NCBI GenBank assembly: GCA_934316925.1
Contig: CAKREC010000007.1
Span: 1-64,000, forward strand
Length of the DNA: 64,000 bases
Source of the DNA: an uncultured Eubacterium sp.
GTDB lineage: Bacteria; Bacillota; Clostridia; Lachnospirales; Lachnospiraceae
Direction of reading: 5' to 3'
A program made the position numbers and the translations under genes. Shown here piece by piece: positions 7,665 to 48,019 of the stretch; the first letter of the stretch is position 1, and every line of letters starts with the position of its first letter. The notes beneath the pieces were generated by a model. The model saw only the letters and a list, made by a program, of their open reading frames with translations. It ran no database searches and was not told the DNA's origin.

Positions 7665-7754
7665 GCGTCATAGGATAAAATAAAACATTATGTAGAGAAC
7701 GACCGCCACCAGAAAAAACGGGGAGGCGGCACCGATTATACGAGAGGAGTTACT

Positions 7755-45111: not shown

Positions 45112-45702
45112 ATGGCGTATTTTCCAATGTTTATTCAGATTGAACAAAAGCCGTGTCTTGTCGTGGGCGGCGGCCTTGTGGCGAAGAGAAAGGTTCGGGT
45201 TCTGCAGGATTTTGGCGCGGTGGTAACGGTCGTTGCGCCGGAGGTGGATCCGTGCATCCGGCAGATGGAGCCGATCACGATCTATGAGAAAGATTTTGAG
45301 GATGCGGATCTGAACGGACAGTGTTTGGTTGTGGCCGCAACGGATCAGCCGGAGATAAATCATCGGATCTATGACAAATGCAAGGAAGCGGGGATCCTTA
45401 TCAATGTCGTGGATGACCCGGCATATTGTGATTTTATTTTCCCGGCATATCGAAAAGAAAAAGATATGGTAGCTGCATTTAGCAGCAGCGGCAAGAGTCC
45501 TGTGGTGGCCCAGTATCTGAAAGAAGAAAATCAAAACATTCTGACGCCTTTATTGGGAGACATCAATGAACGCATGGGAGAATTGCGAGATCTGTTGAAA
45601 AAAAGATACCCGGATGAATCGGAGAGAAAACAGGTGATCCGGAACATGTTATATCAAAGTTTAGAAAAAGGAGAATTCAAATGGAACGAGGAAGAAGACT
45701 GA
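45112..45702 (+). CDS. Precorrin-2 dehydrogenase / sirohydrochlorin ferrochelatase-like (CysG N-terminal type)
   Basis: Oxidises precorrin-2 to sirohydrochlorin with NAD and may insert iron to give siroheme. The N-terminal Rossmann motif CLVVGGGLVAKRKVRVLQDF, then VVTVVAPEV, LVVAATDQPEIN and INVVDDPAYCDFIFPA are the Met8p/CysG-N signatures. AAFSSSGKSPVVAQYLKEE near residue 120 is the start of the helical domain. Length 196 is a stand-alone enzyme without the methyltransferase half, which is encoded at the end of this operon. GGAGGAG precedes ATG 45112. The 3' end overlaps hemB by 22 bases. Confidence 0.9.
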   Translation: MAYFPMFIQIEQKPCLVVGGGLVAKRKVRVLQDFGAVVTVVAPEVDPCIRQMEPITIYEKDFEDADLNGQCLVVAATDQPEINHRIYDKCKEAGILINVVDDPAYCDFIFPAYRKEKDMVAAFSSSGKSPVVAQYLKEENQNILTPLLGDINERMGELRDLLKKRYPDESERKQVIRNMLYQSLEKGEFKWNEEED

Positions 45703-46667
45703 GAAGAACAGCTGCACTTAGAGACATGGTAAGAGAACATCATATTCGTGTAGAGGATCTGATCTACCCACTGTTTTTGGTGGAAGGAGAAAATATTTGT
45801 GAACCAGTGCCTTCTATGCCGGGGATTTATCAGTATTCATTAGACCGGGTACAGCAGGAACTGGACCGGATCGTGGATCTGGGGATTCCGGCGGTTCTGT
45901 TATTTGGTGTCCCGGCACACAAAGATGAAGTGGGCAGTGGGGCATATTGTGAAGATGGGATTATTCCAAGAGGGATTACCTATATAAAAGAACGATATGA
46001 AGATCTCATTGTCATTGCCGATGTGTGCCTTTGCGAATACACTTCGCATGGACATTGCGGACTGGTACGTGACGGGGAGATACTCAATGATGAAACATTG
46101 CCATTATTAGCCAAGGCATCCTATGTGTACGCAAAAGCAGGCGCAGACGTGATCGCACCTAGTGACATGATGGATAAGCGGGTTTCCTGTATTCGGGAGA
46201 CGCTCGATCAAAACGGCTTTTCACATATACCGGTTATGTCATATGCAGCTAAATTTGCTTCGGCATATTACGGACCATTTCGGGATGCTGCACATTCCGC
46301 ACCGGGATTTGGAGATCGCAAGACCTATCAGATGGATCCGGCAAATGGAAGAGAGGCATTGAGAGAGGTACAGCAGGACATCGAAGAGGGAGCTGATTTT
46401 ATCATTGCAAAGCCGGCGATCGGGTACATGGATATTATTAAAGATATTTCCAATCACTGCAACATTCCGATCGTAGCTTATAATGTAAGCGGTGAATATG
46501 CTATGGTAAAAGCGGCAGCGCAGAATGGATGGATTGATGAGAAAAAGATCGTCATGGAAAATATGATCGGATTGAAACGCGCCGGTGCCGATATGATCAT
46601 TACTTATCATGCCTTGGATGTAGCTACCTGGATTAGAGGAGAAACCCATATGACGAAGTCATATTGA
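45681..46667 (+). CDS. hemB: Delta-aminolevulinic acid dehydratase (porphobilinogen synthase)
   Basis: Condenses two 5-aminolevulinate into porphobilinogen. The zinc cysteines are in DVCLCEYTSHGHCGLV near residue 116. The Schiff-base lysines are in MSYAAKFASAYYGPFRDAA near 195 and in IAKPAIGYMDII near 247. YNVSGEYAMVKAAAQNGWID is the C-terminal signature. 328 residues. It starts inside the preceding gene with GGAG nine bases upstream. The last codons (HMTKSY) come from an 84-bp insertion. Without it the frame would read HIKEEQK and stop in an ATGA overlap with hemL, so the C-terminus has been remodelled without loss of function motifs. Confidence 0.94.
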   Translation: MERGRRLRRTAALRDMVREHHIRVEDLIYPLFLVEGENICEPVPSMPGIYQYSLDRVQQELDRIVDLGIPAVLLFGVPAHKDEVGSGAYCEDGIIPRGITYIKERYEDLIVIADVCLCEYTSHGHCGLVRDGEILNDETLPLLAKASYVYAKAGADVIAPSDMMDKRVSCIRETLDQNGFSHIPVMSYAAKFASAYYGPFRDAAHSAPGFGDRKTYQMDPANGREALREVQQDIEEGADFIIAKPAIGYMDIIKDISNHCNIPIVAYNVSGEYAMVKAAAQNGWIDEKKIVMENMIGLKRAGADMIITYHALDVATWIRGETHMTKSY

Positions 46668-46735
46668 AAATGGTTTCGACGACCTGCCGCCGAGCGGAGG
46701 CGAGGGGGCAATACATATTGAGGAGAAACCCATAT
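46636..46735. repeat. 84-bp insertion bounded by 16-bp direct repeats at the hemB-hemL junction
   Basis: GAGGAGAAACCCATAT occurs at 46636-46651 and again at 46720-46735. The 68 bases between begin with the palindrome GACGAAGTC (part of ATATGAC-GAA-GTCATAT, 46648-46664) and contain a GC-rich dyad-like core (CCGCCGAGCGGAGGCG). Deleting one repeat copy plus the insert restores an uninterrupted hemB frame that ends in ATGA overlapping the hemL start, like the other junctions of this operon. I read it as a MITE/REP-like insertion with target duplication. Confidence 0.65.
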
Positions 46736-46750
46736 TAAGGAGGAGCAAAA

Positions 46751-48019
46751 ATGATCACGAGATCTGAAACACTATTTGAACAGGCAAAAGAATTGATCCC
46801 CGGCGGGGTAAACAGTCCGGTACGTGCGTATGGTGCGGTTGGCAGGATTCCACGTTTTATCAAGCGTGCAAAAGGAGATCGTATCGTCGATGAAGATGCC
46901 AATGAAATGATCGATTATGTATGTTCCTGGGGGCCGGGAATTCTGGGCTCCGCTCATCCGGCTGTGGTTGAACAGGTGAAAGAGGCCTGTGAGGATGGAC
47001 TTACATATGGTGCGCCGACAGAAAAAGAAGTTCAGCTGGCGCAGATGATATCACGTCATGTACCGTCGATGGAAGTGAGCCGGCTGGTAAGTTCCGGCAC
47101 AGAGGCAGTTATGAGTGCAATCCGTGTTGCCAGAGGATTTACAGGAAGAGATAAGATTATCAAATTTGAGGGGTGCTATCATGGACATTCCGATGGCCTT
47201 TTGGTAAAAGCCGGCTCTGCGGCGCTTACTACAGCTGTAGCAAACAGTGCGGGAGTACCGGCAGACTATACGAAACATACGCTGGTAGCAGATTATAATG
47301 ATGAAGAGTCGGTGAAACAATTGTTTGAAGCGAACCGGGACGAGATCGCTGCCGTGATCGTAGAACCGGTGGCGGCAAATATGGGTGTTGTTTTGCCAAA
47401 GCCCGGCTTTTTGCCTTTCCTTCGTGACATTACAAAGCAGTATGGAGCATTGTTGATCTTTGATGAGGTGATCACAGGATTCCGTCTGGCTTTGGGAGGC
47501 GCGCAGGAATATTATCAGGTAACACCGGATCTTACGACGCTTGGCAAGATCGTAGGAGGTGGGATGCCACTGGGTGCATATGGTGGACGCCGGGATATTA
47601 TGCAAATGGTATCTCCGGTCGGACCGGTATATCAGGCAGGAACATTGTCGGGCAATCCGATCGCAACAACGGCGGGACTGGCGACGTTGAGAATTCTGGA
47701 ACATGATCCGCAGATCTATGCACGGCTGGAACAAAAAGGTGCTTATCTTGCCAAACGGTTACAAGCGGTTTCCGGGGATATCTGTGTGAATCAGGTGGGA
47801 TCTTTGCTGAGTGTATTTTTCACGAAGGGACCGGTTCAGGATTATGATACAGCAGTAGAATCCGATACAAAGGCATATGCAGACTATTTTGGATATGCGT
47901 TGGATCATGGAATCTATCTGGCACCGTCGCAATTTGAGGCGATGTTTATTTCGGATGCACATAGCGAAGAGGATTTGAAAAAAACATGTGATATCTTAGA
48001 GGGATTTTGGAGGAAGTAG
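46751..48019 (+). CDS. hemL: Glutamate-1-semialdehyde 2,1-aminomutase
   Basis: PLP enzyme turning glutamate-1-semialdehyde into 5-aminolevulinate, the partner of HemA. ELIPGGVNSPVRAYGAVG near residue 14 is the family opening. SSGTEAVMSAIRVARG and FEGCYHGHSDGLL lie in the PLP pocket. LIFDEVITGFRLALGGAQEY near 235 binds PLP, and the Schiff-base lysine is in TLGKIVGGGMPLGAYGG near 265. 422 residues. AAGGAGGAG precedes ATG 46751. The original start context overlapped the old hemB stop; today a 68-base insert plus one repeat lies before it. Confidence 0.95.
   Translation: MITRSETLFEQAKELIPGGVNSPVRAYGAVGRIPRFIKRAKGDRIVDEDANEMIDYVCSWGPGILGSAHPAVVEQVKEACEDGLTYGAPTEKEVQLAQMISRHVPSMEVSRLVSSGTEAVMSAIRVARGFTGRDKIIKFEGCYHGHSDGLLVKAGSAALTTAVANSAGVPADYTKHTLVADYNDEESVKQLFEANRDEIAAVIVEPVAANMGVVLPKPGFLPFLRDITKQYGALLIFDEVITGFRLALGGAQEYYQVTPDLTTLGKIVGGGMPLGAYGGRRDIMQMVSPVGPVYQAGTLSGNPIATTAGLATLRILEHDPQIYARLEQKGAYLAKRLQAVSGDICVNQVGSLLSVFFTKGPVQDYDTAVESDTKAYADYFGYALDHGIYLAPSQFEAMFISDAHSEEDLKKTCDILEGFWRK

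Follow-up and report, generated by a model that had tools for sequence, protein, structure and literature searches.

GA-cis RNA at a hemB-hemL junction: a probable inserted repeat in Lachnospiraceae

Why does hemB in this DNA end in an exact direct repeat, and what lies between that repeat and hemL? We analysed the whole stretch of 64,000 nt (termed the window), in which the 16-mer GAGGAGAAACCCATAT occurs exactly at 46636-46651 and again at 46720-46735. This confirms the positions and the 84-base spacing given in the original prediction, which read the pair as a target site duplicated by a MITE/REP-type element. No other exact 16-mer direct repeat with a spacing of up to 200 bases is present in the window (16-mers made of one or two bases were skipped in the search), and no such repeat arose when the window was simulated 60 times as a first-order Markov chain.

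A GA-cis RNA in the last codons of hemB

An Rfam search of the window (cmscan) returned a single match above its cut-off. This match, to GA-cis RNA (RF02987), covers the full length of the model (positions 1-88) and scores 91 bits against a gathering cut-off of 34.7 (E value 1.4e-18). Our own model of the family, R1, gives the window unit 89.2 bits, the window sequence being itself a member of R1. Both the two-hairpin layout and the sequence blocks of the unit match RF02987, and this comparison establishes, at the level of sequence, the identity of the window element as GA-cis. Rfam and R1 together find one clear copy in the window. A weak R1 match at 7669-7737 (14.1 bits, E value 0.051), located just 5′ of an ORF start preceded by GAGAGGAG, may be a chance match or a decayed GA-cis copy. 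The features of the locus are as follows.

45681..46667, + strand: hemB as now read, 328 aa, with tail RGETHMTKSY and its stop inside GA-cis (ORF; PF00490 on P0001)
46632..46635, + strand: ATTA left of the insert, a possible short target repeat (read directly)
46634..46719, + strand: GA-cis RNA RF02987, model 1-88 (cmscan, alignment, R1)
46636..46737, + strand: probable whole insert, 102 bp, one complete GA-cis unit followed by a truncated one (the joined flanks give WIKEEQK and a stop, as in relatives)
46636..46651, + strand: first 16-mer copy, the unit 5′ end, with Shine-Dalgarno-like GAGGAG (sequence, RF02987 alignment)
46641..46646, + strand: stem P1 5′ arm, GAAACC (fold, RF02987 alignment, covariation)
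46648..46664, + strand: hairpin 1 palindrome ATATGACGAAGTCATAT, with a GAA triloop, C-G closing pair and ATG at 46650-46652 (sequence, fold)
46665..46667, + strand: hemB stop TGA, just 3′ of hairpin 1
46672..46677, + strand: stem P1 3′ arm, GGTTTC, with alternative pairing to 46725-46730 (predicted fold)
46685..46710, + strand: hairpin 2, GC-rich, with G-A mismatches (fold, RF02987 alignment)
46720..46735, + strand: second 16-mer copy, the putative start of a truncated second unit (sequence; same arrangement in 17 of 68 other arrays)
46725..46730, + strand: GAAACC in the second copy, an alternative P1 partner (forced-pairing fold)
46734..46737, + strand: ATTA at the right end of the insert, a possible short target repeat (read directly)
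46738..46743, + strand: AGGAGG, the presumed native hemL Shine-Dalgarno (SD) sequence, directly right of the insert
46751..48019, + strand: hemL (ORF; identity from annotated hemL matches)

Several elements of the original prediction are borne out by these features. The palindrome at 46648-46664 and the GC-rich hairpin at 46685-46710 are both present, the TGA that now ends hemB is supplied by the element, and the claim that an inserted repeat changed the end of hemB and parted hemB from hemL agrees with our reading. The first 16-mer is the 5′ end of the GA-cis unit, within the RF02987 alignment; stem P1 forms between its GAAACC and a GGTTTC further inside the unit. The second 16-mer is best, and with good support, read as the beginning of another, truncated unit that would directly follow the first. 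We consider it likely that GA-cis was inserted in the last codons of hemB, directly before the hemL SD, as a complete unit followed by 16 bases from the beginning of another.

The hemB-hemL junction with and without the insert

Deletion of the 102 bp from 46636 to 46737 yields a hemB ending in ATWIKEEQK and a stop (323 aa) and an ATGA overlap with hemL. The empty junction predicted for this insertion would lack the 16-mer and read ATTAAGGAGG; a close DNA parallel is the sequence GGATTAAGGAGGAAGAACAGTGA of L008. ATTA stands on either side of the 102-bp insert, the empty site itself being reconstructed from other species. The original prediction had instead removed one 16-mer copy together with a 68-base core. 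As it claimed, this leaves hemB open (ending in WIRGETHIKEEQK and a stop, with tail RGETHIKEEQK) and produces the ATGA overlap, but removing both copies fits the relatives better.

Forty-seven hemB relatives (L001-L047), taken from the best 80 of 386 loci, were compared at this junction. Because the closest hemB relatives among these 80 are only about 78% identical, the empty hemB-hemL site is inferred across species. After W followed by I, L, V or M, the hemB tail starts with K, R, T, Q or H and then E or D in 39 of the 47 relatives, and an RGETHI-like tail occurs in none (0/47; L044 ends before the stop). No GA-cis match at E values up to 1 was found at any of the 47 hemB loci. In 32 of these loci hemL is found no more than 230 bases from hemB, in two it is further off, and in 13 the examined stretch has no hemL match. 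The comparison with relatives that the original prediction had envisaged finds the junction empty in other species (0/47 loci with the element). Judged by the hemB tails of relatives, the 102-bp removal with its tail KEEQK is a better fit than the one-copy removal. The RF02987 alignment and these tails are the reasons why a target duplication is disfavoured, and the 16-mer pair is probably not a duplicated host sequence.

An ATGA overlap had also been claimed for other junctions of this operon. This holds for hemA-hemC, but the other junctions differ: by the ORFs, the dehydrogenase gene and hemB overlap by 22 bases, and a single base lies between hemL and hemA and between hemC and cobA/hemD. 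The names hemA, hemC and cobA/hemD are our own reading of the ORFs.

The same junction carries a different repeat in another genome, G005, in which two units of about 83 bp and a truncated third precede hemL (L005:4955-5170). This tandem repeat occupies the same place as GA-cis but differs in sequence, with no GA-cis match at E values up to 1. Five more matches to it occur in G005, most of them partial; one is the opposite strand of the same place. Among the hemB homologues, P0002 (477 aa) has an internally duplicated N-terminal part.

Spread, structure and landing sites of GA-cis

Further copies, which the original prediction proposed to seek in the genome itself, come here from related genomes, in which the GA-cis family recurs many times. 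Within the genus of G003 (the genome of L003), four of eight genomes carry GA-cis, with 44, 13, 8 and 2 matches. With stricter filters that lose weak matches, the family sample gave GA-cis in 31 of its 397 genomes (29 above the cut-off) and the phylum sample in three of 398, all three being already among the genus or family carriers. From all matches we chose a set of 83 (82 distinct units) that forms 68 arrays in 12 genomes, 32 of the arrays coming from the GA-cis-richest genome, G017. The window was added for the analysis of right ends (n = 69 arrays). Analyses of junctions and placement used 66 arrays, excluding the window and two arrays near contig ends, and alignment A1 holds 42 sequences, window included.

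Units are mostly about 85-92 bp long, and 12 of the 68 arrays consist of two or three tandem units with a period of roughly 80-105. Counting the window, there are 83 distinct units; the first 12 bases contain an SD-like motif in 79 of them (exactly AGGAGG in 63), and an ATG comes shortly afterwards in 73. By raw count, an apex of the form C-GNA-G is seen in hairpin 1 of 62 of 83 units and in hairpin 2 of 31. GNA loops are a stable loop type according to passages of PMC6479982 that cite Yoshizawa (1997), and the C-GNA-G type reportedly forms DNA minihairpins of high stability. In the 42-sequence alignment, seven of ten predicted pairs stay paired despite changes on both sides (six in P1 and one in hairpin 2), and hairpin 1 lies outside the consensus structure.

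A partial copy of the unit's own 5′ end stands at the right end of 18 of 69 arrays, window included; the other 51 have no such own-specific copy. At L084, the partial copy seems to supply the SD, the ATG and the first codons of a downstream gene that we read as proC-like. We also considered a conserved small peptide starting at the unit ATG. The open frames from this ATG vary from two to over 60 codons and ten units have no ATG there; therefore no conserved peptide is seen, and this candidate was rejected.

Two junctions at which G017 carries a unit could be compared with seven sister genomes. In none of the seven is there an element between pyrF and pyrK, where 6-87 bases separate the aligned flanks. 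At the NAD kinase-argR junction, no element match is present in any of the seven; five are resolved close to the junction, with 32-50 bases between flanks, and L286 and L291 align only further out, with 250 and 161 bases between. All four gene names are our reading of the translations. A second line of evidence comes from a 25-bp palindrome, GTTCACATCG...CGATGTGAAC, of which 58 empty copies exist in G017, one in G019 and none in the six other genomes of the genus. Among the chosen loci (palindrome loci of G017: L239, L241-L253), three copies of this palindrome hold a unit at their centre. More generally, six of 66 arrays lie between inverted arms of at least 8 bases, compared with 0.27% of 3306 mismatched pairings. 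That GA-cis units are inserted is shown by the orthologous junctions without the element and by the 58 unfilled palindromes of a single genome.

For 39 of 66 arrays, the ORFs on both sides run in the same direction and the downstream one has a start preceded by an SD, compared with 6.1% in a control of 2157 placements drawn at random within the same loci. A start with an SD before it discriminates less well when taken alone (45 of 66 arrays, against 33% in the control), and by the rule used 27 of the 66 arrays lie elsewhere than at a junction of two operon genes. Within the arrays examined, these placements demonstrate a family-wide preference for operon junctions. GA-cis elements precede different genes, and some reside inside intergenic palindromes. 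Among 48 stops of upstream genes, 18 coincide with the first bases of the element (0-2) and 13 with the ATGA in stem 1 (16-18); the stop of the gene upstream therefore often comes from the element. At L082:1501-1582, a GA-cis match below the threshold (31.5 bits) is antisense and lies inside a continuous purL-like frame, which suggests that a coding gene took up an insertion in frame.

The mechanism that we consider likely is the following. GA-cis is an interspersed repeat in Lachnospiraceae, non-autonomous in appearance and presumably mobile through a helper. At its start the unit carries an SD-like AGGAGG, in many cases with an ATG behind it in hairpin 1, and it often ends the upstream gene near this start. 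Since the unit brings an SD-like start of its own and supplies a stop, it could land beside an operon SD without destroying that SD; the upstream gene would stop within the element and the native SD would still serve the next gene. In the window, hemB would have gained a new tail and stop, and a tight hemB-hemL junction would have become an 83-base spacer with hairpins. The effect on expression is likely to be mild, consisting of looser hemB-hemL translational coupling and a structured junction, and we think that the insertion is near-neutral.

Alternative readings and the question of mobility

Near-equal folds of the window raise the alternative that GA-cis acts here strictly as a cis-regulatory RNA. 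The two 16-mer copies would compete for GGTTTC, and ribosomes crossing hemB would switch the fold and, with it, hemL expression. The two exclusive pairings are predicted at -37.5 kcal/mol with the first copy (the best fold) and -36.6 kcal/mol with the second (forced), P1 covaries, and the partial copy in the 18 arrays could form the alternative stem, which was folded for the window alone. However, both alternative P1 stems leave out the native hemL SD, part of which pairs in each predicted fold with hemB sequence further upstream. Because the folds are nearly equal but the SD is outside both P1 stems, the model leaves a switch possible and not favoured. The 51 arrays without a partial copy also speak against it, as do the variety of downstream genes and the elements that occupy intergenic palindromes; we regard this reading as unlikely.

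Slightly less probable still is growth of arrays in place, by replication slippage at the hairpins and the repeated SD-like sequence, with no transposition and an old dispersal of the units. The tandem arrays with truncated last units agree with slippage, as does the failure to find a mobilising enzyme in the PF01797 search described below. In contrast, the sister genomes lack the element at both junctions tested, one genome holds 58 empty and three filled copies of the same palindrome, and slippage alone cannot carry a unit to new places.

The original explanation, in which a MITE/REP-type insertion duplicated the host sequence GAGGAGAAACCCATAT as a 16-bp target site around a 68-base core, does account for an exact repeat bounding a foreign-looking core and for the frame that stays open with one copy left, but it is improbable given that the first copy belongs to the GA-cis model and has its pairing partner in the core (the second being better read as a truncated unit), that the tail RGETHIKEEQK has no counterpart in the 47 relatives, that unit ends are not inverted repeats (matching at a mean of 4.8 of 14 positions, and 3 of 14 in the window) and that no Y1 transposase match exists in G017 with its 44 GA-cis matches.

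An inserted GA-cis repeat therefore remains the preferred reading, and what could move it was sought with PF01797 (Y1 transposase) in 24 chosen genomes, some of whose assemblies may be incomplete: eight of the genus, seven rich in GA-cis and nine without a match. PF01797 is found in 12 of the 24, comprising four of 11 with GA-cis and eight of 13 without; G282 has 17 matches. None is found in G017, G022, G229, G150, G163, G241 or G189. A related transposase, for which the original prediction proposed a search, was not found in the richest genome as a Y1 (RAYT-type) match, and a Y1/RAYT mobiliser was rejected, since Y1 shows no association with GA-cis carriage in the 24 genomes. REP/REPIN elements bear a GTAG or GGAG tag next to the palindrome, and the motif GGAG is contained in the AGGAGG of units.

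REP/REPIN elements moved by RAYT (Y1) are treated in a background passage of PMC3733652. Like these, GA-cis is short, palindromic, interspersed between genes and sometimes arrayed; unlike them, it has no Y1 in its richest genome found, and many of its arrays precede an SD and are oriented in sense. With MITEs, GA-cis shares its small size, its non-autonomous appearance and a possible 4-bp repeat (ATTA), but it lacks terminal inverted repeats and no parent transposon was seen in the Y1 search. GA-cis looks like an interspersed, sometimes tandem, inserted repeat rather than a demonstrated REP or MITE, whereas the Rfam search labels RF02987 as 'Gene; sRNA'.

The family was reportedly defined in a 2017 paper, which lies outside our literature search; that search, for GA-cis as a dispersed repeat, returned nothing relevant. 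The one paper found to mention GA-cis, that on Rfam 15, carries it as a table entry with name only. Here, a curated RNA family looks like an insertion element whose landing preference is the ribosome-binding site between operon genes. If this is true, GA-cis matches should be annotated as insertions, they form a natural set of insertions for testing operon coupling, and the question arises of what moves them. We tentatively propose, as a speculation that may well prove wrong, that GA-cis spreads itself as a DNA element, homing to Shine-Dalgarno sites and to the loops of hairpins, that a still-unnamed enzyme acting on single-stranded hairpins moves it, and that its own SD, start and stop codons keep operons translatable.

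As to a viral vehicle, 39 stretches of viral contigs contain an exact 17-base match, probably by chance. A plasmid search with hemB-hemL returned 54 records at 60-80% identity; among 20 of these, no more than 39% of the query is covered, and where a feature is annotated it is hemL.
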